DNA of 64,000 nucleotides. Origin: Dryococelus australis (taxonomy: Eukaryota > Arthropoda > Insecta > Phasmatodea > Phasmatidae). The position numbers were made by a program, and so were the translations under genes. Shown piece after piece: positions 3,840 to 64,000 of the stretch (the stretch's first letter is position 1; each line of letters begins with the position of its first letter). The notes beneath the pieces were generated by a model that was not told the DNA's origin, did no database searches, and saw nothing but the letters and a program-made list of their open reading frames with translations. The stretch is from the NCBI GenBank assembly GCA_029891345.1, contig CM057002.1, positions 62,610,777-62,674,776 of the forward strand, written 5' to 3'.

Positions 3840-4106
3840 GAGTGGACGGGTGAAGTGAGTGAAGAGATTTGGGCGGCTCTGAATAGCGAGGTCTTCAGAG
3901 CCGATGAGGACGATTGAAGTAAGTATGAAGCGGCGCCGGAATGAAGGGGGCGGTGAAAATGGGAGATCCCAGAGAAAACCCGCCGACCAACGGCATCGTC
4001 CGACACGATTCCCACATGCGGAAATCCGGTGACCTGGCCGGGGATTGAACCCGGATCGCATTGGAGGGAGGCGAGCGTGCTAATCGCTCGGCCACCGCGG
4101 CCCCCT
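3840..4106 (-). mobile_element. tRNA-derived SINE, family 1 (copy 2)
   Basis: One of the better preserved copies. Read on the minus strand, the head has an A box (gtggccgagcgattagc) and B box (gggttcaatccc), followed by the family body with the ccgttggtcggcgggtttt core, and a tail ending tctcttcactcacttc. Pol III-transcribed tRNA-derived origin follows from the two boxes. Confidence 0.85.
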
Positions 4107-8493: not shown

Positions 8494-8750
8494 AGAGCCA
8501 CGGTAGCTGAGCGGTTAGTCTGCTCGCCTCTTACCAAGGCGAACCGGGTTCAATCCCCGGCAGGCTCAATTCGGATTTTCGCAAGTGGGAATCGTGCCGG
8601 ACGATGCCGCTGGTCGGCGGGTTTTGCCGGGGATATTCCGTCCCCCCCCCCCCTTTTCATTTCGGCGCTGCTCCGTACTCATCTCACTTCACCCTCATCG
8701 GCTTTCACGACCTCGCTGTTAAGAACCGACCAAATCTATTTACTTACCTA
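8494..8750 (+). mobile_element. tRNA-derived SINE, family 1 (copy 3)
   Basis: Head gagccacggtagctgagcgg with A box and cgggttcaatccc B box, then the body with ccgctggtcggcgggtttt and a C-rich patch, ending near caaatctatttacttac. The retroposed insert at 8767-9349 lies immediately downstream. Confidence 0.85.
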
Positions 8751-14950: not shown

Positions 14951-15352
14951 AAGACTGTTCACGATAAAGTGACCACTTTTGAAATCAACCTTAGAAAAAA
15001 CTCATTGTCCCTGCCTGCATACATTTTGACATGCGCACAGTAAAGTTGGCAATGAGAGATGGGAAATAGTTCCATATCTTAATGTCAAATAGTGTTAGGC
15101 AACCATTTGTGAAAAATGAAATAATTTATTTTCCTCTCTATTATTTTTTAAATCGTCTATGTATAAGAGTGAGCAGAATTGTATCATATTTACTTTTCTA
15201 ATGATTCCACAGTTTTGCTTGACCGACGCATGAATAAAGTGATAAGGCCCATCGCAATGTTAATTTTACATAAGGCGGAGGAATACACAACGTGCGTTCA
15301 AGTATATCCTAAGCAGGGCTTTCAAAAGTGCTCATTTTACCATGAACCACCT
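14951..15352 (+). mobile_element. MITE family A, long form (copy 2)
   Basis: About 400 bp. Left end agactgttcacgataaagtg, right end ctcattttaccatgaaccac as an inverted match. Interior phrases ttgaccgacgcatgaataaa and taattttacataaggcggag recur in the other copies. The open frame inside it is only an incidental reading of the MITE. Confidence 0.85.
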
Positions 15353-15484
15353 ATAGGAATCTTGCAGTTGCATGAAAATCTATAGTATGGCCAGAATTTA
15401 TCTTAGATTATTTATAACGGGATATCATATCCAGTCCAATTATGGCTACTTCCAACTTTCCTGAAGACTTACTAAAGTCAAAGT

Positions 15485-16818: not shown

Positions 16819-17232
16819 CGGCTGTTCACGGCAAAGTGAGCACTTTTTAAATCAACCTTATAAAAAAAATCACTGCTCCTACTTGCACATATTTTAACGG
16901 GCGCTCTGAGTGACATGCGCCCAGCAAAGTTGGTCACGCTAGAGGGAAAGTACAACTACGTCGAAAAAAAACGTGCTAGGCAACCATTTGTGACTACTTA
17001 AATTACTTATTTAGCTTTCTTTTTTTTAAAATGCATCGCAGTGAAAAATGAGCGCATTTTAGAAGTATTTACTTTTATTATAGTTTCACAATTTCACTGG
17101 ACCGAAGCATCAATAAAGTGATGAGGCCCCTTGACAATGTAATTTTACATAACACGTAAGACTACACAACGTGTATACAAGCAGATCTTAAGCAGGGCTT
17201 TCGAAAGTGATCATTTTACCGTGAACAACGTA
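16819..17232 (+). mobile_element. MITE family A, long form (copy 4)
   Basis: Complete copy from cggctgttcacggcaaagtg to atcattttaccgtgaacaac. It lies only about 40 bases after copy 3, in the opposite orientation. Confidence 0.85.
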
Positions 17233-17239
17233 TAGATCA

Positions 17240-18481: not shown

Positions 18482-18893
18482 AGGCTGTTCACGATAAAGT
18501 GAGCATTTTTGAAATCAACCTTAGAAAAATGTCACTGCATATATTTTGACGGACGCAATTAGTGACACATACCCAGTAAAATTTGTGACGATGGATTGGA
18601 AAGAATTTCCATGTATTAAGGTCGAACAAAAATTGTTAGGTAACCATTTGTCATTACTTAAATTATTCCTCTCGATTCCTGTATTATTTAAAGCATTGAA
18701 GTGTAAAAATTAGCAGATTTGTACTATATCTACATTTTTAATAATTCCACAGTTTCACTTGACCAACGCAGGAATAAAGTGATAAGGCCCATGGCAATGC
18801 TAATTTTACATAAGGCGGAAGAACACACAACGTCCACGCAAGTAGATCTTAAGCAGGGTTTTCAAAAGTACTCATTTCACCACGAACAGCCTA
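18482..18893 (+). mobile_element. MITE family A, long form (copy 6)
   Basis: Complete copy: left aggctgttcacgataaagtg, right ctcatttcaccacgaacagc. Interior closely matches copy 2 (gataaggcccatggcaatg, ttacataaggcggaagaac). Confidence 0.88.
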
Positions 18894-20096
18894 TACAATT
18901 ACATGGGTGCTAGGAATTGTTATGAGAGGAAGGGGTGGGGACTACTCTCTTTCCCCTTGCACCCACCCCTGAATAGCCGGAGATCGGAGCCCTGCCGTCT
19001 AGAGTCTGCTTCGTGTCGCTCATACCCCACGAAGAGCTTCTTTCCTGGTTCGCCCCCCCCCCCGGCCACTCTTCTCGCCCTACTCCACTGAGTGTGTTGC
19101 AGTTAATTCCTATTCGCCGACCGCTTGCCGTGGCAGGAGTTATTGTTGTCTGCTCAGGGCCGTCCTTCGGTGTCAATCAGGCCTAATTAATACTTCCCGA
19201 CATGCAGGTTTTTTTTTGCCTTTAGTTAATACTTTCGCAGAGCTACTCGTGTTGACCCAGTCTCCTTAGTAGGCTACCGCCGACCGCCTTTCTCCCGAGC
19301 GCACTGCGTGGCTGGTGTTGCAACCGTAACAAGGTCCTGCGCGAAGTCCTACTTAAAGGCATTGCAGATGCAACATTTAAATAGGAAATCCCGTGTTAAG
19401 GAAATTTCCCCTAACTGCGTTGATTAAAAAAAAAAAATAGGCCTTTTCAAACCAAATACAGTCTTCACAAATATTTTAGGAGATGAATAAGACCGAATAT
19501 TTTAAACATATTTTGGCAGTATGTACTTTTTTGTAAAACATACATTAAAGAAATTCTTTTCAGTGTTTTAGCCGCACTGCGTGAGGTACATGAGGAGTGG
19601 CAACCGGAATGTTTGTCCATAACGGGGCAGACTCGAAAGCTTTTGACCTGGCCCTGTCGAGACCGGTAGAAAAGATGACTGCTTTTGAAAAAGGAAGCGT
19701 GCTATGGAAACATCTCGCTGTGGGGAAGTTCTAAAAAATTTGCGAAGAATACATTTTGTTTGAAACGATTACCGTTGAGATTAATGCACTGAGGCGAAAT
19801 TTCCCAAAGATGGGATTTCCGTTTTAAATGCCGCAGCTGCCAGCAGGTAGACAGGGTCCTTAAGGCTCCTGCTTACCTGGAGTTTGTTTTATCTGCGTTT
19901 GGGACCGAGAAGTGCGGTAGCAATAAGGAAAGACTGTCATGTGCATCAAGTTCGCCATCGCCGCTAACCGCAAGGCTCTGAACTGACGTGCAGTATTCTA
20001 GTTGAGCTGAGCTGAGAGATTTGGCCGGCTCTCAATAACGAAAGTAGTGGGATTTTGCGAAGTCTGGGCCAAGGGCATAGGATCGTAGTATTGGGG
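18894..20096. other. No gene recognised; SINE tail fragment near 20012
   Basis: GC-rich in the first 400 bases, then AT-rich. At about 20012-20045 the words gagagatttggccggctctc match the 3' end of SINE family 1 read on the minus strand, but the rest of a SINE is missing. No convincing open frame. Confidence 0.35.
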
Positions 20097-28260: not shown

Positions 28261-28379
28261 TTAATAACAAGTTACTAAATTTGGAATATTTATTTTGTGG
28301 GATGTTTTATTTAATTAAGGCCTCCATATCTTAAGAGACTGGCTATGCTCAGAGATTTTGAAAAGTTATAACAATACAT
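28261..28379. other. Junction between LINE debris and the Polinton remnant
   Basis: AT-rich bases with no resemblance to capsid coding or to a Polinton terminal repeat; the break of the element lies at or near the right end of this stretch. Confidence 0.4.
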
Positions 28380-28945
28380 TTAACCGTGTGTAAATTGCCC
28401 AGGACCTTCTTTTCTGTTTTTCTGAAAACCAACAATGACTATGTCTGGCATATCGAATTGGATTGAATTGAACTGATCTTTTATATCAAACTGAAATGAG
28501 TTTGCATTAGTAGGTACTGGTTTTTCAAGACATTGCCAACAATTAAAAAGAAAAACAATTATATTTCCTAACATATTTACCTAATTCTATACCCGACATT
28601 TGGAAGTATGCTGATTCTGATTCTGAAACCTAGCAATGTATGCATCATTGTTGAAGTGATGCCAGGGTTGTCAATACTTTCGATTATACAACCATATTTA
28701 GAGATCTCTAATCTTGAGAACTGGAATGGGAAGAAATTCTCACAAAAATCAATGGTTGAAGTTTTTTCATAATCTGCATTTGTATCTCTTTTAGTTAGCT
28801 TATACTGTTGGTATACATAAGCTTCATTCGGATGTGAAAATGCATCGCCAATAGGAATATTAAACTCAATGAGCTTGTTGTATTCATTCAAATTATTTTT
28901 CTGTTTGGTCGTTTGGAGGAAATGACTGACACTCATAACTTTCAA
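28380..28945 (-). pseudogene. Double-jelly-roll major capsid-like protein, truncated
   Basis: The first frame (28577-28945, 122 aa, start MKVMSVSHFL) is followed after a stop by a second open piece (28380-28574). The first piece carries a segment ending DNPGITSTMM after a hydrophobic/aromatic stretch FPFQFSRLEI. The second carries DIVIVGFQKNRK. Both resemble conserved blocks I associate with the capsid-like proteins of insect Polintons, where a G-[IV]-T-S-T block lies in the N-terminal jelly roll and an F-Q-x-N-R-K block further on. About 190 codons remain against roughly 500-650 for a complete capsid protein. Translation beyond 28380 loses all resemblance, so the element is broken here. The region between the two blocks is shorter than expected, which implies an internal deletion as well. 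The assignment is from motif memory and is less secure than that of the integrase, protease or ATPase. Confidence 0.55.
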
Positions 28946-29009
28946 TTTTTTGTTGATCCTTTTATTATATAGAAAACAATTTTTTCTTAAACTACACTTT
29001 TCTTATCAA

Positions 29010-29885
29010 CCAAAGAATTATGACTACTATCAAAACGTAACTATTTAATTAGCAGCTTATTTCCTTTTCTTCGCAAAACTTTTTCCATTAAGTAGTCTTA
29101 ATCATATTTAGTCTTAAGCAGCTCTGGCTCATAAAAAATACCTCAAATAAGTTCATTTTTTAAATCTTTTATTCTATATGCCGTGGGGTCTGTGCGCAAT
29201 ACTTCACACACCTCAAATACTTCAGTGAACCAATTTGGCGTGTATCCTTTTTCAAACAAATTTTTCTTTTATTTATACGAACTTTATCTCCAATTGCAAA
29301 CTTTGGTTTAACCATTTTCCTTCTCCTCTATACATATTGATTAGAATTGAACCTTCATTCTTTGCACTTACATTGGTGGGTTTCATACCGATTGTACTGT
29401 GAACAGTGTTATTGTATTCACTTATTAATTTAGGTAATATAGCCATTCATTTATAGCTTCCCTGCACAGTAAATATCTTCCACATTTTCTCCTTCAATGT
29501 TGTATTAAATCTTTCTACAACACTAGCTTTCTTTTCACTGTATGTTGAATAGTGTGTTATGTTGCTATTGGCCATTAATGTCTTAAATTATTTATTGTAA
29601 AATTCTTTCCCTTCGTCTGTTTGTAAATGCATGGGTTTGCGATCATTCAAAATAGTTTTAAATGCTAACGTAACATTTTCATCGCTTTTATCTTTGATTG
29701 GTATTGCCCAAAAACATCTATCACGGTTAACATATATTAAAACCCTTTGTTAATTCTGTGTATACCTTTTAAAGATCCAGAACTCATCTAATCTAAATCA
29801 GCTTGCCAAAGATCATTGATGCCAAAAGTAAGAACAGTTCTTCTGGGAAAGTTTTTTCGCATTGGTTTGTAATTTCATTAGCAAT
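29010..29885 (-). pseudogene. Polinton retroviral-type integrase with C-terminal chromodomain, decayed
   Basis: Translation in all minus-strand frames gives, in order: a basic lead-in containing NFPRRTV, the first catalytic aspartate in DLWQADLD (about 29793-29813), a core strand LTVIDVFG, the second aspartate in LQTDEGKEFYN (about 29604-29623), and the glutamate in SVVERFNTTLK (about 29505-29520). There are 33 codons between the second Asp and the Glu. Downstream are the SH3-like DNA-binding region (VRINKRK, GYTPNWFTE) and a chromodomain (YLMEKVLRRKGN, FDSSHNS, about 29010-29110). The family inserts the element by DDE strand transfer; the chromodomain is thought to guide target choice. At least six frameshifts and several stops interrupt it, one lying within the catalytic core after FYNK. 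The three acidic residues are still encoded. The N-terminal zinc-binding region is missing and the gene abuts the zinc-ribbon gene, which suggests a deletion. Confidence 0.88.
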
Positions 29886-30052
29886 ATCGTTTTTTATATC
29901 CCCACCAGTGAATATAGAGTTATTGGTAACACAACATCTACAAACACATTTAATTCTTACTTTGTTATTATTTGTAAGTTCATATGAATTTTATCACTGA
30001 GTGTATTTTTCGCATAATTGAGATAGTATACATTTAAGTTATCATTGTTCAT
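29875..30052 (-). pseudogene. Small zinc-ribbon protein of Polinton type, decayed
   Basis: The frame opens at an ATG at 30052 (MNNDNLNVYYLNY...), then continues after a one-base shift near 29965 as VRIKCVCRCC...TGGDIKNDIANEI. The layout, with a Cys pair near the N-terminus, a basic linker, a second Cys pair and then a GGDI block, matches a small zinc-ribbon protein often next to the integrase in arthropod Polintons. Here the first pair is read as YYLNY where family members have C-x-x-C, so both cysteines appear to have become tyrosine through TGY to TAY changes. The reading then runs straight into the middle of the integrase, consistent with loss of the DNA between the two genes. Its role in the element is not established. 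Recognition rests on the second Cys cluster, the GGDI block and position. Confidence 0.55.
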
Positions 30053-30072
30053 TTTATTTATTTATATAATAA

Positions 30073-31115
30073 ATGAGACAACAACAAATTGTAAGCGATA
30101 TAGAGAAGAATTTAGAGAGAAGAAGACAGCTAATTGAAAAGCTTAAAACTTTTCGAAAATTTCGCCAAGATGAATATGATAAAAAAAAAAAAAAACACGA
30201 TCAACCATTAATAGATGCGATAGAAGATTTGGAACATAAAATTGGACATGTAACAAATGAGAATAAGAACTTAATAAAAAAACTTGTTCCATTTGCTGTT
30301 AAGAATTTAGACTACCCACAGACACCAACAGAAACTTCTTTTGAAAGAAAACTGTTTGGTAAAATAGCCATTGAACGCATTGACGATGACGATGAATGCT
30401 ATGACGATGGTGTTAGATGCATTGACGACGACGATGAATGTTATGACGAAGCATTGGGGCGTTTGAAAACTGATATCTCACAGTTAACTAACTACAAAAC
30501 TAAATTTATTGATTATAAAATGGCCGAGTTCTTAATTGACTGCAAAGACAATGTTTATGGACTAAAGGCTGATAAAGGTAGATTGTATGTTGGTGATAGC
30601 GAAGTAACATTCAACAATGTCAAATTTACTGTAGAAGGCCGAACATACACTGGAATTGATGGTTTGATGAAATGACTAACAAGTTTGAAAGTAACAGAAA
30701 GTGACTACACTGCAACCAACTATGGACTCTATAGTTGTATCCTAGCAGATACAAACACAGTTTTTCAAAACTATGATCCAAACTTGGGAATGCAAAAATT
30801 GAGTAAAGGGAATAAATGGAAAATTATTGTTAAACCTATTTACTATTCGATCAAAAGGAAACGGAAACGTCTCTTACCTAAAAAGGGGAAAGGTATAAAG
30901 AAATATACAGACTACCCCAAAGAATAAATATGGATGGATGATGTTAGGATGCTTATTGATCGACTTCTCATTATTTATGGCGAAGAGAATGCTGGAAATG
31001 ATAACTATTACAATGAAAAAGTTGGAATAGTGACTTTGTTGTGAATAATCCAAAAGGTATACCATGTCTGATACGAGTGTTAAACACAATACCACATACT
31101 TTTTGGGAGTTGGAG
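30073..31115 (+). pseudogene. PX-like Polinton protein, broken by nonsense mutations
   Basis: Three open pieces lie in one frame (30073-30675, 30685-30927, then to about 31042), separated only by stop codons. A fourth piece (VNNPKGIPCLIRVLN, to about 31110) is in another frame. The first 75 residues are strongly charged and likely helical or coiled-coil (ERRRQLIEKLKTFRKFRQ). An acidic block IDDDDECYD occurs twice, at residues 103 and 117, from a 42-bp duplication starting at 30378 and 30420. The blocks YTGIDGLMK, LYSCILADTN and KWKIIVKPIYY resemble a conserved protein of unknown role in insect Polintons, usually called PX-like. A basic stretch KRKRKRLLPKKGKG could bind nucleic acid or direct nuclear entry. 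It directly precedes the PLA2-like gene on the same strand, as in known elements. Function unknown; a virion or genome-associated role is only a guess. Confidence 0.6.
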
Positions 31116-31715
31116 CTGCACGGAAAAGTACTTAGGTTAGGGTGCCAGACTAAAAGAGAGAATTTTGCATGGTGAAAAACCCATTAATCCACTAGATACG
31201 GCCACAATGGAACATTATATAGCTTATCATCATCAAAAAGATCCAGCTGAAAGGCATGTAGCTGACAAAGAACTAGAAAAGAAAGCATTCAAAAGATTGT
31301 TAAGTTCAGATGCTGATCTCAATGAGAGATTGTGGGCTGGTGTTACTGGATCTGCGATGAATATTAAACGTAAGCTTAGCTGGGAAATTAACTGGACAGT
31401 AAAAACAAGAAATTAATTGAGGACAAAGGGATGACTATCACAATTTCAGTTCCACAGCTTAAGAAAATGTCCAAAGAAATGAAAACTGGAAATGGTTTGA
31501 CAGTTCACATGGGTGGATTTTTACCCTTAATTTTTGTAGCATTGGGAGCTCTAGGGATGTCATCTATCGCGACATCAGTAATTAATGATAAGAAGAAAAA
31601 CCAAGAATTGGAAGAACAACACAGACATAATTTAGCTATGGAGGAATATGGAAAGGAATTGAAGAAAGTTAAGTGGGGTAAGAATATTAAAAAAAAAAGT
31701 AACTCAACTCAGTAA
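31115..31715 (+). pseudogene. PLA2-like domain fused to glycine/hydrophobic minor virion-type protein
   Basis: The open piece 31165-31416 and the same frame upstream (ARLKERILHGEKPINPLD) carry the hallmark of parvovirus-type phospholipase A2-like domains found in Polintons: a G-x-G-x-x-L-like lead, then PINPLDTATMEHYIAYH, then ADKELEKKAFKRLL. The catalytic His-Asp pair (H-D-x-x-Y) reads H-Y here, so the presumed active site is damaged. The second piece, 31431-31715, has GGFLPLIFVALGALG (a hydrophobic, possibly membrane-active segment) followed by NDKKKNQELEEQHRHN. In family members both parts belong to one protein, and the frame of the second piece stays open upstream to about 31390, so a single frameshift near 31385 separates them. 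By analogy with parvovirus VP1 and adenovirus pVI, an entry or membrane-penetration role is plausible but unproven. It sits directly before the protease, a typical order. Confidence 0.68.
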
Positions 31716-31719
31716 CTTT

Positions 31720-32065
31720 GATATTAATCAAATGGTAAAAAATTAAACATTATAAATTTTCGGGGTGTATTTATGATCGATGAGCTACTTAACTCACCAC
31801 TCGATAATGAATGTGGGATTGTTAATCTAGATGTTTGAACAAACTCTGGTACACACTGGGTATGCTATTGGAAAAAGCAAACAACAAATATTATTTTGAT
31901 TCATTAGGTGGAAATCCACCACGACAATTAACAGCATACCTCGGAAGTAATATTTTTACATCGATGATAGAATTCAAAAATTCAATCAAGTAACTTGTGG
32001 TCATTTGTGTGTAATTGTGCTAAATAACTTTTCACATAATTTTAAATTTCCAAAAATTATTTCAG
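31720..32065 (+). pseudogene. Adenain-like cysteine protease (C5/Ulp1-related), decayed
   Basis: Split over frames, the segment encodes in order FRGVFMIDEL, ECGIVNLD, then SGTHWVCYWKK with the catalytic His (about 31847-31885), YYFDSLGG with the catalytic Asp region (about 31890-31915), a PPRQLTAYLGS block, and VTCGHLCVIVL containing the presumed catalytic Cys (about 31990-32025). This H...D...C order and the GTHW and FDS motifs define the adenovirus-protease family that Polintons use to mature capsid proteins. There is a stop after VNLDV, a frameshift after CYWKK, another before the Cys block, and one in the A-rich start region near 31735-31745. All catalytic residues remain legible. At roughly 110-115 residues it is shorter than adenain (about 200), but fits the compact Polinton versions if part of the N-terminus was lost. 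It follows the PLA2-like gene on the same strand. Confidence 0.85.
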
Positions 32066-32077
32066 TATCAATAAACA

Positions 32078-32539
32078 ATGGATATATGTGGATATGCATT
32101 AATGACCTTTTGGATTGAAGATCAAATTAAAGAAAACAAGGACAATGATACAACTACTGAGAAGATCAATCCTAATGATTTTGTTTCCTACACGCAGTTC
32201 AACGACTTTGTAGCCACACTATCAAGAAATAAAAGATCATTGGATGAAGCCTATCTTATTTACTTGGAAGTAGATAATAATATAGATTTTGAACAAAAAA
32301 GACTAAGACGTGTGAGATCCCATTGAACCGATGGATGCAATCAATTTAGAGTATTATCAGAAAAAAACAGAATTAACATTATTCGTTTAGTTGGAAAATA
32401 CAGTTCAAAAGAAAAAGTATTTAACTTTGATAATCAAATAGAATATTTTTTTATGAGAGATGGAACTATAGTTGAAATAATAATAAAACCAGAAAAATAT
32501 AAAAGTGTTATCAACTTATACTATCAATGGAAAAAATAG
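32078..32539 (+). pseudogene. Unrecognised Polinton-associated protein with one in-frame stop
   Basis: An ATG at 32078 opens 82 codons to a TGA at 32324-32326. The same frame then stays open to a TAG at 32537-32539, for 154 codons in all. The first part is hydrophilic and mixed-charge (DQIKENKDNDTTTEKINP, then TLSRNKRSLDEAYLIYLE). The part after the stop (NQFRVLSEKNRINIIRLVG, then IEYFFMRDGTIVEIIIKP) alternates hydrophobic residues in a way that suggests beta strands. I do not recognise a family. Its place between the protease and the packaging ATPase is where virion proteins often sit, so a structural role is possible. The uninterrupted frame on both sides of a single stop argues that this was a real gene and not chance. 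The start could be further upstream, but that overlaps the end of the protease. Confidence 0.5.
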
Positions 32540-32541
32540 AC

Positions 32542-32664
32542 ATGTATAAAACTTTTGAAGTATACCCTGATGATATGATATATTTTAAAATACCAAAAGC
32601 CCACAATGTACCCGAAGGTACAATTGTGTTTATTGAAATAGTTATAGTATATGAATACATTTAA
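32542..32664 (+). CDS. Small open frame of unknown role (40 aa)
   Basis: An ATG two bases after the preceding stop opens a 40-residue frame (start MYKTFEVYPDDMIYFKIPK) ending in TAA at 32662-32664. It is in a different frame from the gene before it. The composition, with alternating hydrophobics (IVFIEIVIVYEY), looks like a beta strand pair. It could be the frameshifted C-terminus of the preceding protein or an independent mini-gene. Nothing in the sequence decides this and no family is recognised. It ends about 60 bases before the 3' end of the convergent ATPase gene. Confidence 0.35.
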   Translation: MYKTFEVYPDDMIYFKIPKAHNVPEGTIVFIEIVIVYEYI

Positions 32665-32725
32665 AAAGATATTATGTTAGTTTTTAATGGAAACACTTTC
32701 ATTAAAAACAAAACTTACTTATAAT

Positions 32726-33424
32726 CTAAGAATTAAAAAAGTATTTAATTTTATTATGGTACTTACAATTATTTAACTTACGAGTCATATATATCTTAAC
32801 AAAACCGTATTCATTATTCCAACATTTTGAACAAGTCTCCCTAAATTTCTCAAACGACATATCACCACCAACAAAATCACTATGAATATGCTTAAGATTT
32901 GTATCATCTTGTCTGAACATGCAAAGAAAATTGGCATTGTCTCTTATAAGCTGCTTAGTTACTTTTGAGTATGTCTGGGCTAAATATAAACAATCAATAT
33001 CTTTGTGTCTACCACGAATAAAGTAATCCCTTACCATATTTTGATTTTCAAGTATGATATCATCGAAAACAACTACAGATTCTTTATGGCATTCATTTAC
33101 ATCAACCATTTCTTCATTTGATAGAAAGAAGTATGCTATCGTTTCATTAAATAATTTTGATGCTACATCTATATATTTCTTTAAATTGATATATTTTGGT
33201 TGGTCCAGACTTTTTGAACATACATAGAGTACCAAATCCAATCATCCCTGAGAATATATAAAATTATCTATCATAAGTGTAGTTTTTCCACAGTTACTAG
33301 GACCCACTATCGAACATATAATATTATTAAGTAATAATTATCCTTGACACTTTGTCGATGCAGTCTTGTCTGGTATTCTTATTTTAATATCCCTGTCTAC
33401 ATGTTTCATGTTTTTCTTACTCAT
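32726..33424 (-). pseudogene. A32/FtsK-HerA-type genome-packaging ATPase, two nonsense mutations
   Basis: From an ATG at 33424 one frame runs 232 codons to 32726 with two internal stops: TAA at 33338-33340 and TGA at 33242-33244. Walker A reads IVGPSNCGKTTL (about 33262-33313). Walker B reads SVVVFDDII (about 33050-33080). It is followed by the sensor/arginine-finger region YLAQTYSKVTKQLIRDN and the C-terminal block FRQDDTNLKHIHSDFVGGDM. This pattern is that of the DNA-packaging ATPases of Polintons, virophages and large DNA viruses, which pump the genome into the capsid. The length is close to the 230-250 residues usual for Polintons and no frameshift is visible, so apart from the two stops the gene is well preserved. 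The second stop separates Walker A from Walker B, so no single product could be active. Confidence 0.9.
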
Positions 33425-33454
33425 TTCTTAATAGATTTTTTCAATAATATAATA

Positions 33455-34187
33455 AATTAGTAAAGTATTCAAAATAACAGATAACAAATCAGTGTTGAAG
33501 AAAAGACTACTTTACCCTTCAGAGATAGAGGTGCACTCATTGACTTTAGTTCAGTTCTATACTACTTATCTAACGCATAACATTATCTCTGGAGAAAATA
33601 AGATATATTTTGTGGGCCAGAATGATATGGAATCAGCAGTTGAAATTCCAGTTGGCCAATATACATTAAAAGATCTTGAGAAAACTATGAAAACGATTTT
33701 TTTTTCATTTAGTGTAGATTCAATGGATGGGAAAGAAAATGATATATCTTTCGAGCTGAATAAAATAACAAACCGAGTGAAAATAAAATGTATGCTTAAA
33801 TTACAGCTTGGAAAATGGGGTTCAATTGGATAACTTTTGGGTTTCGTAGAAAATAAAACTCTGAAAGCAAATGTGGATCATTAATGCGATACAATTCCAA
33901 AATTTGCTCCATTTGAAACAATAAATATACACTGTAATATAGTAAATGGTATGATATTAATACATGATGAATATAATCATAGCGAAACTAATATAATTAC
34001 CACTTTTAAACCAAGAACATCATTTGGATTTGGCGACACGATCTATTACGAACCAGCTTATCCATTATTTTTTCCAGTGCAAACAAATCAAATTATTGAA
34101 ATAATAGTTGAAATTAAGGATGAAAAAGGTAAGTTAAATAACTTTGATTTGTCCGAAAGAACAGTGGTATTAGAGATGAGACCATAG
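33455..34187 (+). pseudogene. Penton-like minor capsid protein (PY-type), two nonsense mutations
   Basis: One frame is open from just after a stop at 33453-33455 through to a TAG at 34185-34187, broken only by stops at 33831-33833 and about 33894-33896. Recognisable blocks are YPSEIEVHSLT near the start, AVEIPVGQYTLKDLE in the middle, FETINIHCNIV, a GDTIYYEP block, and PLFFPVQTNQI near the end, followed by NFDLSERTVVLEMRP. This is the order in the Polinton minor capsid protein, a single jelly-roll that forms the vertices of predicted virions. About 230 codons fits the family. No ATG precedes YPSEIE in frame. The piece beginning at 33492 starts with GTG, and the true start may have been lost. 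It is divergent to the ATPase, with a short shared AT-rich gap that probably held both promoters. Confidence 0.75.
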
Positions 34188-34514
34188 ATATTTTTTTTTG
34201 GGTTGGAAGTATCATATTCTATATATATAATAACTTTAATAGTTTAAAAACTATTAAAGTTTCACGTGATAAAGATGAATAATATTTCTATAGAAAGTGT
34301 AATGAAAGATTCAGAAAAAGAATTCAATGTTTCGACTACTTTAATATGTCGAATTTGGAGATGCGTATCTAAATTTTTAATTAGACTATGTAGTAGCACA
34401 TTGCCGAAGTCAGAGCGATAATCGTGTTTTAATGATTGGATTACCATTAAAACTTTATAGAGATATGAGCACAAATAAAAATCAACTAATGTCTAATTTT
34501 ACGACGACGGTCAT
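34188..34514. other. AT-rich stretch inside the Polinton, no gene recognised
   Basis: A short perfect-looking inverted repeat (ttaatagtttaaaaactattaa) lies at about 34232-34253, directly after the penton-like gene, and could act as a transcription end signal. Beyond it, the plus strand has an open piece beginning MNNISIESVMKDSEKEF and, in another frame, LPLKLYRDMSTNKNQL, but I recognise no family. The minus-strand open frame in the same place (34262-34474) is hydrophobic and probably a shadow. Confidence 0.35.
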
Positions 34515-34823
34515 TTACTCTTTTAAAAACTGAATAGAATGCATTTGTTTAACACCATAATCCACCATTCCATCATATGCAAAACTTATACCTCCACGAT
34601 TAACATCATTTAAAACTGTTTCACTGAAAATCTGTACATATCTGTCTGATAAGGTTACTTTAAAATTTCCAGAAGTAATTATCACTTTGTATCCATGCCG
34701 TGTACCATTTATTTCAGCATGGTTTATGGGATAGGACTGCCCAATTGTAAGTTCGGAAAGTTTATTAAATTGTTTGGTTCCGTTTAATACATTTAGCAAC
34801 TGATCCATCTTTATTATATGCAA
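34515..34823 (-). CDS. Intact 102-aa Polinton-associated protein of unknown function
   Basis: A complete frame from ATG to stop with no lesion, unlike most of its neighbours. The sequence starts MHIIKMDQLLNVLN; a second ATG five codons in (MDQLLNVLNG) may be the real start. It contains a GQSYPINHAE turn, an alternating strand segment (YKVIITSGNFKVTL), then SDRYVQIF and FAYDGMVDYGVK. The pattern recalls a small uncharacterised protein family that I have seen repeatedly in insect Polinton-type DNA, with a strand-rich core like an OB-fold; that fold guess is inference. It is the last gene before the right-end repeats and points inward. Survival of the frame could be chance given its short length, or recent constraint. 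Confidence 0.55.
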   Translation of the reverse strand: MHIIKMDQLLNVLNGTKQFNKLSELTIGQSYPINHAEINGTRHGYKVIITSGNFKVTLSDRYVQIFSETVLNDVNRGGISFAYDGMVDYGVKQMHSIQFLKE

Positions 34824-34845
34824 TATTTTTTTTTACGTTTTCAAA

Positions 34846-35013
34846 TTTTTTGAGCCACTTTTTTGCAACTGCGCCCAAACGCAACTTTTTACGCGTATTT
34901 TTGCAGATGCACTCAAATGCAAAGTTTTACGCAACTTTTGTTCTAAAGACTACGATCTAACCAATCAGAACTTTTTGAGTTACTTTTTTGCAATTGCTCC
35001 CAAACCCAACTTT
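34846..35013. repeat. Subterminal direct repeats at right end of Polinton
   Basis: Two diverged copies of a unit of about 44 bp, starting tttttgag and containing tttttgcaa and cccaaac, lie at 34846-34890 and 34972-35013, 126 bases apart. A shorter related piece (cactcaaatgcaaag) lies between them. Polinton termini often contain such short repeats within long inverted repeats. The matching left end is not in the window, so the exact border (about 35056) is an estimate. Confidence 0.5.
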
Positions 35014-35056
35014 GAGCCATTTTTTTTTTGCGTTTGAGCTCAAATCGGCATTTCTG

Positions 35057-37910
35057 TACTACTGATACTGATTTTCCAACGGTACCCTACTTGTTGCAAA
35101 ATTATTACGCCAAATTTTAGGCTTTCACTGATTCGCGAACAGGTACACTGACCACGGTTAAGTCTAACTTGCAGGTAATTGAACTCGCTAAAATTTCCTG
35201 GCGCTATTGATAGGCGTGGTACAGGGAAATAAAATGAGAATATTTCGCTTGCAGACTTACGTCTGGAAATTCAACGCGTTCGCGGTCAGGTTGCACTGGA
35301 AACGCCTGCCAATACGCGAATATCCGCACGCCAGAGTCAAGTCCTTTACTGCAATATACAGTAAACCATACTGCTCGTTTCGGGATAGACATTAGTTTCA
35401 TTGAAACAAATACAGAGGCGGTCGGCTTTCTGACGGCCACGACCTGGGGAGTTGCGTTGCTTTCATCACGTACTAAATGTATGTCTGCTACGGTCATGTG
35501 TAATGCTTAGTCATGGCTGAGGGAAAATTAAAACATTTTGTTATCAAACAGATCTAATGTTTGTATTATAGATAAGACAATAATCACGCTATGCTGTACC
35601 TAGTGCAACTTCCTGCAGCAAAAAATATTATTAATAATAATAATATTTACGTGACGCTGAACCGCCTGATATATCTGCAATCATTACTGCACTTGAATTG
35701 CAGTACGATTACTTTGAGAGGCGTTGTGGGTCACATTCTTCAAAGTACTACATACTCTCAATGCTGAACCCCTACAGTTTGTGACGTGTATTTGTGGATG
35801 AAAGATGTTTATTAAGTCCCATGCACAATACTCTAATGCGTTTAAATAGTTATAGAATGACTCAGTATGTTACAAAACGTTCTCTCCCTCTCTCTCTCTC
35901 TCCATTTATCTTAATCATCCATAAATTATTTTAAAGTATTGAATTAGTTCAGCTATATGATTATACACATTATACTTCCATGCCGAATTCAGCTATTTAA
36001 GATACATAGTAGTATGACTTTAATATTTACGCAAGTCTGCTAATGTTTTCTAGTAATCCAACTGATGAATGTATATACTATTGGCTCTGACTTCTCCGGG
36101 GGGGATTGGGGGGGGGGTGTGGATTGGCAAAGGTTATGGAATGTGACTTAGTGACACTTCCTAATAGCACTGGGTCAATTTATCCGAGTTTACGGGTGGA
36201 GTCGGGAATACACGACATAGTCCAACTTCTGCACACACTATACAATTTCCGTCAAATTACGATCGAAAAAGTGTCAGAAAAATTTGTCCGTAAGTATTCG
36301 CAAAGCATAAATTTCGCGGAGATTTTTGCCTGAATTAACGGAGAGCATTATGTAAATCTCCCAGTTTTATTTATTTTTTACTGCATTCGTGTTTTTATGA
36401 AGTGGCATTACAAAACACGTTTATTCTTGTTACGCGGATACTCCACTTGTAAAAATATAGACTGAAGTCATTTCGCTTTAGAGTGATAATTGAACATGGC
36501 CAAGGATTCTATAAAGGCTGAAAACAATAACATTCACCCATCGGTGGTACACACTGCTTGTGTTGAATAACTATTTTTCACATTTAAGTTATATATAAAT
36601 ATTTTAGTTTACTATGTGACTGAAGATGTTGAAAAGTTGCCGACAGGTAGATCTAAGATCTTACTTCTTGTGACCAGTGGCGCTTATTCCATAGACGCAA
36701 GGTACATATTGCAAATGTTCGACTCTTTATAGTTTCTGCCTTAACTTTACACACATTTAATTCTGAGTTTCCTGTTTCCGAGCCGAGAAACAGAGTTTTG
36801 GTAGTTCCCGTACTGTACACGCATTGCGCTGCTATCTAGTATTCATTTCCCCAAATAGGAGCGACTAGCGATGAATCGAACTCACAAGTAACCACATGCC
36901 ACTCGCTCGAGGGTAAGCAGTCGTTCTGTTTACGTCATCCAGTCCTACATTGTTCCTTGGAAAGTGGATGAAAGTGCTCGGGAAAACGGGAGTTTTCTTA
37001 CAATTTGTAACATGCTCCCTAAATAATATTCAGTTTAATTATTTTTACATTAATTTCGTTTCCGTTTTTATAACTAATGCTAGGTAACATGAAACGGTAA
37101 ATACACGTGGTGGGTAAGCAGAGTTGGAAGTTGCGTTTGTTAGTAGAAATTGCAAATAGAACCCCAGCCCTGCACTAGAAAGACTGAGTGTTAAACACGC
37201 GACCTTCTGAAGCGTAAGTTCTAATTTCATTTAAGTAAATGTTATCTAAAAGACTCAAATATACGCGGAGACATTACATTGCTTACCCTGTAAAAAAAAA
37301 CCTGCTACACGCCGCTGCTTAAAACAGTTGAAGTTTCAGGTGTAGGTGGAGCGAGTATCCTAATTGCCATAGGAATTATCATTTCCGTACCACAACGGCC
37401 AATAAAACTCTGTACATCAACATTATTTCTCGTTCCGGACACTCGAAGCTACGAGAAAACCATTGATACTCCACTTTCTTTACTGCATGCTGATCAATTA
37501 CTTTTTTCCATCCTTACGGGTTGCGCTTTCTTGTGTTAATTACAAATTCCTGTAAATATTTCAGTTAACTTACGTTAATTCCAACGGCGTGTTTAGTTCC
37601 TCCAGAGTCGACCGGCCAGATTTGACGACGAAAGTCGAGCAGTATCCCCCGCCCCGCGTTGGCGAAGCATGGGACGTAAAAGACGAGAATTGATAGCTCG
37701 CGAAGACGGCGGACATGACCGTTACTTCCGCGTCGGCGGGCCACGACGTCCATTTCCGCCTCTTGATTTTTACAGCCGGTACTTCGGACGTATTCACGGT
37801 TGAAATTCAAATACTGCTGCGTTTTGAGCGCGTAACACGTTTTGCCCCGTGGCGTTATTGTCGCGCGTGGCAGTGTCAAGGACGAGTCCCAGACATGACA
37901 ATAGGCTATG
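35057..37910. other. No gene recognised; CpG-rich block at 37580-37890
   Basis: Mostly AT-rich, with a tctctc run at 35881-35903 and a G-run at 36100-36118. The end is a CpG-rich block with overlapping open frames on both strands (104 aa minus, 66 aa plus) and no recognisable domain; it stops exactly where a MITE of family C begins. Confidence 0.35.
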
Positions 37911-38551: not shown

Positions 38552-38800
38552 CGGCGATGTAGTGGTTAGACTAATCGTCCCTCACCTTTGCGAACCGGGT
38601 TCGATCCCCCGTGACGTCGCTCCTGGATTTTCGCACCTGGGAATCGTGCCGGACGGTGCCGCTGGTCGGCGGGTTTTCTCTGGAATCTCCCGTTTCCTCC
38701 CGCCCTTGTATTCCGGCGCTCCTCCATACTCACGTCACTTCTCCCTCATCAGGTCTCAAGACCTCGCTGTTAAGAGCCGCCCAAATCTCTTCACTCCACA
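38552..38800 (+). mobile_element. tRNA-derived SINE, family 1 (copy 5)
   Basis: Near-complete copy: A box tgtagtggttagactaat, B box cgggttcgatccc, then gaatcgtgccggacggtgcc, ccgctggtcggcgggtttt, and the tail aagagccgcccaaatctct. One of the best matches to the family. Confidence 0.88.
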
Positions 38801-39840: not shown

Positions 39841-40096
39841 AGTGGAGTAGAGAGATTTGGGATGATTCTTTATATCGAGGTCTTAGATGAGGGTGAAGTG
39901 AGGTACGGAGCAGCACCGGAATACAAAGGCGGGGCGAACGGGAGATCCACGAGGAAACCCCGCCGACCAGCGGAAACGTCCGGTACGATTCCCACATGCG
40001 AACATTCGGTGATCAGGCCGGGATCAGGCCGGGGATTGAACCCGGGTCGCTTTGGTGGGAGGCGGGCAGGCTAACCGCTCAGCCACCATGGCCCCC
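39841..40096 (-). mobile_element. tRNA-derived SINE, family 1 (copy 6)
   Basis: Minus-strand copy with head gccatggtggctgagcggtt and B box gggttcaatcccc. A short internal duplication (gatcaggccgg twice at 40011-40032) lies next to the B box. Its head directly abuts a MITE A fragment at 40098. Confidence 0.85.
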
Positions 40097-44486: not shown

Positions 44487-44907
44487 ACTATGTTTAAGAT
44501 AAAGTGAGCACTTTTGAAATCAACCTTAGAAAAAAGTCATTGCCCTTGTTCGCATATATTTCAACGGGCGCACTGAGTGACATTCACCCAGTAAAGTTGG
44601 TAACGATGGATTGAAAGTAGTTCCATATCTCAACTTCGAATAAAAAGTGTTAGGTGACCATTTGTGGAAGCTTAAATTATTTTTTTTCGCTTTCTGTTTT
44701 TTAATGCCCCGGAGTGCAGAAATTACCACATTTGTAAAAAATTTATTTTATAATAATTTCACAGTTTCACCTGACCGACTCACGAATAAACTGATGAGGC
44801 CCTTATCAATGTTAATTTTACATAAGGCGGAAGAATACATAACGTGCATACAAGTATATCTTAAACAGGGCTTCCAAAAGTGCTCATTTTACCGAGAACA
44901 GCCTGTA
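44487..44907 (+). mobile_element. MITE family A, long form (copy 7)
   Basis: Left end decayed (gtttaagataaagtgagcac), right end ctcattttaccgagaacagc. Interior includes atttcaacgggcgcactgag and gactcacgaataaactgatg. Confidence 0.85.
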
Positions 44908-61151: not shown

Positions 61152-61497
61152 CAGGCTGTTCACGGTAAAATGAGCCTTATCTAAAATTAACATTGTCATG
61201 GGCCTCGTCACCTTATTCATGCGTCGGTCAAGCGAAACTGAGAAATTATTATAAATGTAAGTATTTTACAAATCTGCCCATTATTATACGTCAACACATT
61301 AAAAAAAAACAGAAAACAAAAGATATAATTTAAGTTACCACAAATGATGACTTAACACTTTTTATTCGATGTTAAGATATGGAACTACTTTCCACCCTTC
61401 GTTGCCAACTTTACTGGGCTCAGGGGCAGGCAGGCAGGGGCAGTGACTTTTTTCTAAGGTTCATTTTAAAAGTGCTCACTTTATCGTGAACAGGCTT
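61152..61497 (-). mobile_element. MITE family A, long form (copy 10, internal deletion)
   Basis: Left aggctgttcacggtaaaatg, right ctcactttatcgtgaacagg. A deletion near the left end removes the part between gagc and cttatctaaaattaacattg. Confidence 0.88.
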
Positions 61498-62117
61498 TAG
61501 TCGAGATGCTTGCGACGGAGATATTTTTAACTTGACTACTGTGCTGCAGTCAACATGTGGAAGAAATAAAAATAAAAAAGATACTCGGAAACGCAGCGAA
61601 TTTCCTCCAGATTGAATGGGAATGGAGGGACATCGAGAAGGATGAGGCCACGTCAGCGAACTCGGGGCAACGAACGACCTTGACACGATTCCACCCCGCG
61701 ACGGATGCGATCGCGAAACCGAGGGGTGGGATGAAGGGAGGGAAATTTCGACGGATGTGGGAAGGGAAGTTTGCGCGGAGGCAACGTGGTCGTAAAACAA
61801 GCTCAGGGCGTGAGGCCTCTCTCCGCGGAGGGATCTTCTGCAGCACATGCCGTTGCATCTCGTTGGTCTTCTTTCGACGTCGGCAGGAGCCCGCCTCGTT
61901 TGACTCCTCGCCGCGACACGCCCTGGAAGTAAAACCCTCCACGGGAGATACGACCGACTGATACAAAACATAGGACGTCTCTCCGCTTACCCGCTATGTG
62001 AGCTGAAACCGCCAGACGACCGATCGGGGCAGTACGTATTTCGCTTCCTCCTCGGGGACGAGCGAGTAGATCTGCGGCCATCGGAATCCAACACTCTTGA
62101 CTGCTATCGAGTGAGCG
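61498..62117. other. CpG-rich block between a MITE and a SINE
   Basis: GC- and CpG-rich, with frames of 130-190 residues open on both strands. Those frames also run into the flanking MITE or SINE, so they are not genes as they stand. Arginine-rich translations and absence of a domain argue against coding. It may be a promoter-type island or an unclassified element. Confidence 0.35.
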
Positions 62118-62352
62118 GAGTGTGAGTGAAGAGATTTGGCCGGCTGTTAACATCGATGTCTTGAGAGCCGACGAGGCCGAAGCGGGGCGAGGAGTAGAAG
62201 AAAGACGTAAACGGGAGATCCCGTAGAAAAAACCTACCGACCAGCGGCATCGTCCGGCACGATTTCCACTTGCGAAAACCCCACCGAGAATTGAGTTCGG
62301 TTCTCCGTAGTGGGAGGCAAGTAGTCTAACCACTACACCACCGTGCTGCCCT
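62118..62352 (-). mobile_element. tRNA-derived SINE, family 1 (copy 7)
   Basis: Minus-strand copy: head gcacggtggtgtagtggtta, then the body with ccgctggtcggtaggtttt and tail agatttggccggctgttaac reading back. A poly-C/(ca)n tract (62351-62376) is directly at its head. Confidence 0.82.
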
Positions 62353-63736
62353 CCCCCCCCCCCCACACACACACACAAAACTGAAGGTTATAGGGTTTCT
62401 GCTAGTATGCATTTAAAATAAACTTCGTTTTATAATGCCACGGTTTTCATTACAGATACGGCGATAAATTTATTTGAATAAATGCAATAAAGTTTTATAA
62501 TTTTATCGGCTCATGAGTTATGCACACAGACCGAAGATCAGCCATGTTAACACTTGCTTATTTTCTGGAAACTGGAGCCTATTCCGGACATACATCCAAG
62601 ACGGACAGACAGACAAAAATTTTAAAAACCGTTATTTATGCTTCAAAATCGTTTGAATAGCATATTACTCTTAGATATTGGTATCAATTTTGATATAACG
62701 GACAGACACTTGAATTTTGTTTATTAAATTGAAAGTGTTCGTTGATTCACGAAGAGCCAAACTCTGTCACAGAATACTTAGAGGATCAGAAGCAAACTAC
62801 TATTTTTGTTTCGCGAACTCCAGCCGCACACGCCGGGAAAATGGCGGTGACTGGCCAGAATTATTCTGGAACGCCGTTGGCCGAACAGAGGTCGGTAAAA
62901 TCTTCGCGAGCCGACAGCCCAGCCAATAGAGTGCATTTCTCAGCAAGCAGTGGTTGGTTAGTCATACGCCAAATCCGTTCCTGATCTTCGCGCAGCCGAT
63001 CAGAGAATGGACAAGCCCACATCAAGATATCGTGACTAACCACCCTCAAAGGTTATGGAAAGGAACGTGAGACCGCAATCCATTGTGGCTTGTCGTTTCA
63101 ATTTTGTGGTTCTAAGCTTGATATTATTTACAAAGCTTGACATTCAGACAAGTGAGAAAATTGCATAACATCCAACGTAATCGAAGTAAGTTTAATTTGT
63201 ACAAACTGAGAAAATATATACAGTTACAATTTTATATACAAAAAAAATTTAAATCTAAAGCAGTTATTATGCCATAAATTACTTATATTTTTGTGAAAAG
63301 GAGAGAAAAATGTAAGTCCATTCAAATTACGAAAGTTCAATGATACATTTAAGCTAAATAACATAAGAACATGTCCACGTGAGCTATATAGTGCTATATC
63401 CGGCAAGGTAAATAATTATTTAGTCGTTCATGAATGTAATAACTATAGATACATTATGTAATATATTTTTTGTAAATGTACTGAAAATTAATACGTTTGG
63501 TCAAGCAATAATTCCTGAGCTCTGTGTTGCAGTCACGTAATATTTTGGTCTGCACTTAGGCCTGCTCTGTATCGTGATTATTTTTGGAACTAGTGAACAA
63601 TACGCTGTGTTGGATTGTATCTCCACTGGCCATTTATAGACAAGAGTTGCGGTTCATTCAACAAACCAGTTCATTCACAAGGAAGTCACTCAGAGCATTG
63701 CACTTTGACTTCTCGCTCTTCGTAGCCTTCATTTGC
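62353..63736. other. No feature recognised
   Basis: AT-rich, with a slightly GC-richer part at 62820-63060 that has no recognisable domain. Confidence 0.35.
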
Positions 63737-64000
63737 AGCACGGGTACAGCGGTTAGACTGCTCGCCTCCCAACTAGGCGAACCGGGTTCGATTCTAGGGG
63801 GGGGGGGGGTTGCCCCTGGATTTTCGCATGTGAGAATCGTGCCGGGCGATGCCGCTGGTCGGCGGGGTTTTCTCGGTTATCTTCCGGCTCCCCTGTCCTT
63901 GCATTCCGACACTGGTCCATACTTACCTTCCTTCATCCTCATCGGCTTGCAAGACCTCGGTGTTAAGAGCCGACTATATCTCTTCCCGCACCCTCTAAAT
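63737..64000 (+). mobile_element. tRNA-derived SINE, family 1 (copy 8, runs to window end)
   Basis: Head gcagcacgggtacagcggtt, B box cgggttcgattct, a poly-G run (63797-63810), then gaatcgtgccgggcgatgcc and ccgctggtcggcggggtttt. The end of the copy lies beyond or at the window edge. Confidence 0.85.

Follow-up and report, generated by a model that had tools for sequence, protein, structure and literature searches.

A decayed, left-truncated Polinton/Maverick copy with many relatives in an arthropod genome

Is a row of broken genes in the middle of a 64,000-nucleotide window (the whole stretch of arthropod DNA analyzed here) the remnant of a Polinton/Maverick element, and if so, what kind of family did it belong to? 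Open reading frames, complemented by reading frames followed by eye, show that the row fills positions 28376–35063, a stretch of 6,688 bp with a GC content of 30.7%, compared to 38.6% in the left and 41.0% in the right flank. The initial annotation had placed a decayed Polinton/Maverick at 28380 to 35056, less than 10 bases from the edges measured here, and that call is supported by gene content, by sibling copies in the same genome, by termini of the Polinton type and by 6-bp target duplications. The stretch is a real Polinton/Maverick copy, truncated at the left end and with the right end kept. We consider it very probable that it is a broken member of a family which likely spread through the arthropod genome in one past burst. 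The coordinates of all features are given in Table 1.

The identity of the packaging ATPase in the window is certain. A search with a piece of 171 amino acids (aa) from 32726–33241 on the minus strand gave 99 candidates, of which 85 proteins reached E ≤ 1; the best was 62% identical, and 68 of the 85 were labelled PF04665 (Pox_A32). These relatives align across 33406–32732 in a single frame. The 171-aa piece itself had no Pfam match to the A32 family; the corresponding open reading frame (ORF) of a sibling copy matched PF04665 above the cut-off. Sibling loci are labelled L010 and onward, and the gene pieces of the window were aligned to their ORFs by tblastn.

Capsid and integrase were assigned through the siblings. 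When three sibling capsid ORFs were compared to the Pfam family DJR-like_dom, one scored above the cut-off (PF21738, E 1.4e-11) and two below it (E 2.5e-5 and 1.4e-4). The capsid pieces of the window align at 74–96% to sibling ORFs, with a piece 74% identical to the best-scoring one, which points to a major capsid protein of the double jelly-roll type. One capsid piece from the window itself scored only E 0.027 in Pfam and the others had no Pfam match. A homolog search with the N-terminal piece gave five candidates, none at E ≤ 1, and no convincing match was found in PDB. Compared to three siblings, approximately 295 bp of the capsid gene are gone between its middle and N-terminal parts. For the integrase, the sibling ORF to which the window gene is 84% identical matched 11 chains in PDB at E ≤ 0.1 (best E 1.7e-4), of which ten are integrases and one is a Pol protein, as well as PHROG transposases (E 5.1e-5), as expected for an integrase of the retrovirus type. 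The rve profile scored below the cut-off both with this ORF (E 2.1e-4) and with the window gene (E 0.13 for one piece and 0.0013 with X at the in-frame stops), and one integrase piece had no convincing PDB match. By eye the N-terminal part of the window gene is readable on to about 29960. The capsid and integrase predictions are confirmed through the sibling copies.

The remaining genes were identified with varying success. A phospholipase A2 (PLA2)-like domain, PF08398, passed the cut-off with the window's own sequence (E 1.9e-5) and was also matched by a sibling (E 8.8e-14), and approximately 90–115 bp are gone near 31390 relative to the siblings, as seen at the nine of 19 sibling loci that show both sides. 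Motifs of the adenain type were seen by eye in the predicted C5 protease. The penton identity of 33456–34187 is a weakly supported prediction, made from position and reading only. A homolog search with the sibling penton ORF gave no matches among 171 candidates, and a single-sequence fold model of the penton piece was of no use (predicted local distance difference test score of 34.6). Window pieces gave weak matches only in NCBIfam and PHROGs.

All five gene regions named in the initial annotation could thus be located; ATPase, capsid and integrase were supported, whereas the protease was weakly supported and the penton was without profile support. The profile searches it had proposed were answered in part, since sibling ORFs scored above the cut-off for PF04665 (ATPase) and PF21738 (capsid) but integrase and protease remained below it and the penton gave no match. 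The order in which it listed the genes (integrase, protease, ATPase, penton, capsid) has to be revised: capsid and integrase come first, at the left end, and the protease, ATPase and penton genes follow toward the right. It had rightly described the genes as legible through their breaks: stops, frame changes or losses were found in every gene compared with siblings, a comparison that covered all but the small frames 31392–31715 and 34515–34832.

The right terminal repeat of the window matches, in inverted orientation, the left end of a sibling. In siblings the terminal repeats are arrays of approximately 38-bp and 35-bp minisatellite units, varying in number (for example L030:1252-1983 and L034:194-785), and the elements end in AGTAGT...ACTACT, with termini that read AGTAGTATA...TATACTACT. 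The right terminus of the window has two mismatches in 15 core bases. End stretches were collected from 14 copies, with up to 3 or 4 mismatches allowed for recognizing a terminus. Both ends were recognized in six copies, and the flanking hexamers agreed at 30 of 36 positions in all: at 6/6 in L019 and L023, at 5/6 in L022 and L026, and at 4/6 in L021 and L024. The L023 copy is without the last ACT on the right. Siblings carry terminal inverted repeats with ends of the AG type, flanked by 6-bp duplications, some of them imperfect, and the window copy retains the right end only.

What the window copy has lost can be read from the siblings, which extend approximately 5 kb to the left of 28376: the left terminal repeat, the polymerase region and a large part of the capsid gene (its second half). 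A displacement of the missing half within the window by a nested insertion was considered and rejected, since blastn located the left part nowhere else in the window and tblastn did not locate the polymerase pieces there. Across the junction 28375/28376 only the window matches among 40 scored places (out of 1,616 first-look candidates); of the other 39 matches, 36 start exactly at the element side, two start 5 bases and one 20 bases before it. Because no other scored place shares the junction, the truncated form probably did not spread.

In the orientation of the window, siblings carry the left terminal repeat, three long plus-strand frames, capsid and integrase (both on the minus strand), a gene of unknown function, the PLA2-like gene, the predicted protease, a second gene of unknown function, the ATPase (minus strand), the predicted penton, a small gene (minus strand) and the right terminal repeat. 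The three long frames show polymerase-like motifs, and we read them as the predicted polymerase. Three sibling copies with both ends located measured 10,648, 12,334, and 14,108 bp. Between the polymerase and capsid regions L029 and L031 carry approximately 1.4–1.5 kb, with direct repeats at and within this stretch, and L030 is without it. A domain of the BRO-N (baculovirus repeated ORF) type scored above the cut-off there in L031 (L031:4409-4888, E 1.5e-13); the gene is traceable in L029 (L029:4745-5277), and short matches were found in L027 and L044. The stretch was examined in L029, L030, and L031, which are too few copies to call it a general slot. As a tentative picture, rather less likely than not to hold throughout, the genome would contain a single-burst family of approximately 700–2,000 copies with terminal repeats built from minisatellite arrays, in which the region between polymerase and capsid serves for exchangeable cargo: a BRO-type viral gene flanked by direct repeats in some copies, nothing in others.

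The assembly that contains the window comprises 3.415 Gb in 646 contigs, and the related copies that the initial annotation suggested looking for were abundant in it: a 23-base word from the ATPase gene has 716 exact matches, and the reversed control word has none. The ATPase piece, used as query, gave 22,151 first-look candidates; the 150 that were scored matched without exception at E ≤ 1e-90 and, leaving aside the window, were 84–92% identical. No stop was found inside the ATPase match in 16 of the 19 sibling loci kept (L010–L028). DNA searches with two pieces gave 1,982 and 1,616 first-look candidates, 40 of which were scored in each. We infer a family size of approximately 700 to 2,000 copies. 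Contamination was rejected as a source, as the window lies within a 130.6-Mb contig, siblings are found on many contigs and the genome has 139 cuticle-domain matches. The cuticle domain PF00379 was found at E ≤ 0.001 in 139 of 143 scored places of this genome and in none of 14 control genomes, which identifies the host genome as that of an arthropod.

Distances were calculated over 2,173–2,304 sites for 20 copies, comprising the window copy and 19 siblings picked because their ATPase resembles that of the window. The nearest neighbor of the window was at a Kimura two-parameter distance of 0.074 and its median distance was 0.084; the median distances of 17 of the 19 siblings fell between 0.068 and 0.092. 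Such even pairwise distances, of approximately 8%, suggest a star-like past burst with each copy some 4% from the start. The substitution rate of insects is near 3e-9 per site and year, and the burst would then, as a rough figure only, be 10–15 million years old. The closest other copy to the L015 ATPase was 96% identical among 40 scored, which means that no pair of recent origin was observed. In the ATPase gene, siblings differed most at third codon positions (0.080 compared to 0.044 and 0.048 for the other two), which suggests that the gene was under selection and working while the family spread.

Several results weigh against the reading of a Polinton/Maverick family spread by one burst, or against parts of it. 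The polymerase had no profile match in any sibling piece scanned and none in PDB. The protease profile PF00770 gave E 0.0049, below the cut-off, on one of the two sibling pieces scanned and no match on the other, and there was no convincing PDB match for the protease; for the penton, searches of families, PDB and homologs gave nothing convincing. In eight of the 14 copies at least one end went unrecognized, and the duplications were imperfect in four of the six copies with both ends. Two siblings lie farther out, with median distances of 0.151 and 0.184, and since the comparison took in only the window copy and siblings selected for an ATPase similar to its own, the family may have had other or older waves of spread.

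From the gene content and from known Polintons, a complete member would have its DNA copied by its own predicted protein-primed polymerase and joined to new sites by the retrovirus-type integrase, leaving the 6-bp duplication; packaging of the DNA into a capsid with the help of the ATPase would be possible. The copy in the window lost approximately 5 kb at the left and two smaller pieces, and stops and frame changes accumulated. The copies could alternatively stem from an infecting adintovirus-like virus that integrated repeatedly into the germline, and not from transposition within the genome. Among the gene products of the siblings are a capsid protein, an ATPase, a predicted protease and a PLA2-like protein, a PLA2 domain of this kind is described as important for entry in parvoviruses (PMC4061559), and the selection on the ATPase during the spread would also be in agreement with a virus. 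However, the star-like even distances and the hundreds of copies fit amplification within the genome at least equally well, and a viral contig collection scanned with the ATPase alignment gave 28 pattern stretches, none of which was confirmed as a relative. We therefore regard integration by a virus as unlikely, though a serious competitor.

Far less probable is that the element stayed mobile after its truncation at the left, as a non-autonomous derivative. The truncated form does retain the right end, and its break lies inside one gene, but the left terminal repeat is absent and the privacy of the junction among the scored places led us to reject this explanation. Co-option of the copy by the host, with one gene still functional, is more improbable still. 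The frame 30073–30675 is open for 200 codons; the ATPase and the penton each have two stops, the integrase has three stops and a frame change, all other genes compared are broken, and the distances between the window copy and its siblings are much the same as those among the siblings. A decayed copy of a family amplified within the genome remains the explanation we prefer.

Table 1. Features of the Polinton/Maverick copy, in window coordinates.
Feature	Position	Strand	Basis
Whole Polinton remnant	28376..35063		Private left junction, right terminus, drop in GC
Major capsid gene, middle part, cut off at 28376	28376..28548	-	90.8–92.5% DNA identity to three siblings; tblastn
Major capsid gene, N-terminal part, one frame change	28558..28951	-	tblastn, 82.7% and 95.7%
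Integrase, three stops and a frame change in aligned part	29113..29737	-	tblastn, 84% to sibling ORF
Gene of unknown function, one stop	30073..30927	+	Open frames; 71% to sibling ORF over 30277–30765
PLA2-like domain gene, frame change and stop	31053..31389	+	PF08398 above cut-off in window
107-aa open frame	31392..31715	+	Open frame; no Pfam match
Predicted protease of the C5 (adenain) type, with breaks across several frames	31663..32118	+	tblastn with sibling pieces; motifs by eye
Gene of unknown function, one stop and a frame change	32075..32661	+	74–76% to sibling ORF
Packaging ATPase, one frame, two stops	32729..33415	-	Homologs; tblastn to siblings
Predicted penton, one frame, two stops	33456..34187	+	84.6% to 234-aa sibling ORF over 33483–34184
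105-aa open frame	34515..34832	-	Open frame; no Pfam match above cut-off
Right terminal repeat	34844..35063		Copies of ~38-bp unit, then terminus 35046–35063
Candidate right copy of 6-bp target duplication, left partner lost	35064..35069		Position by analogy with siblings

Other repeats were found in the window. A foldback-like repeat, made of a pair of inverted arms of approximately 200 bp, is present at 3854–4088, 8510–8740, 38560–38792, 39851–40079, and 63748–63991, and it recurs next to sibling L010. Copies of a direct repeat of approximately 214 bp, 72–83% identical to the reference copy, are dispersed at 15142–15355, 17021–17234, 18682–18895, and 44694–44907, and an inverted repeat at 2166–2523 has 159-bp arms that are 87% complementary and 40 bases apart. 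At 61420–62387, three open frames on the minus strand (188, 147, and 194 aa) overlap one another, and the two longest have no Pfam match. Searches of the window with Rfam at gathering scores and for tRNAs gave no hits.

The siblings resemble the Polintons/Mavericks of animals in their ATPase, rve-type integrase and double jelly-roll capsid protein; the core genes and the roles of the capsid follow earlier accounts (PMC3671162; PMC4028283). They also share the (AGT)2//(ACT)2 ends and 6-bp target duplications reported for Mavericks (PMC8097293). At 10.6–14.1 kb the siblings are shorter than the vertebrate Mavericks of approximately 17 kb described in the same source (PMC8097293), and the window copy, unlike animal Polintons/Mavericks, is without left repeat and polymerase region. 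Adintoviruses have the same gene kinds, and by eye the C-terminal part of the integrase found here looks chromodomain-like. Adintoviridae are delimited, in the definition given by PMC11071296, by a polymerase with an OTU-like N-terminus and a hexon recognizable by BLASTp.

Vertebrate genomes are reported to hold a mean of 22 and a maximum of 287 Mavericks (PMC8097293), compared to at least 716 places of the ATPase word here, a number that was counted differently. High Maverick abundance is already known from stick insects: Mavericks are listed as the most abundant repeat type in Timema cristinae, with 3.13% of the genome, and as third among repeats in Clitarchus hookeri (PMC5691397), a likeness to the present family in repeat-library counts and not in sequence. 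Figures given for other insects are 1.45% in Nasonia (PMC6035795) and 408 fragmented copies in Mayetiola (PMC8504770). A literature search made without the host name met no published description of this Polinton family, which does not demonstrate its absence.

Taken alone, the copy in the window is ordinary and matters little. The numerous family to which it belongs matters more, as the distances among its copies record the time at which the family moved. Since capsid and replication genes can be tested separately for selection, so dense a fossil series could be used to ask whether transposition, infection or the two together account for the spread of Polintons.

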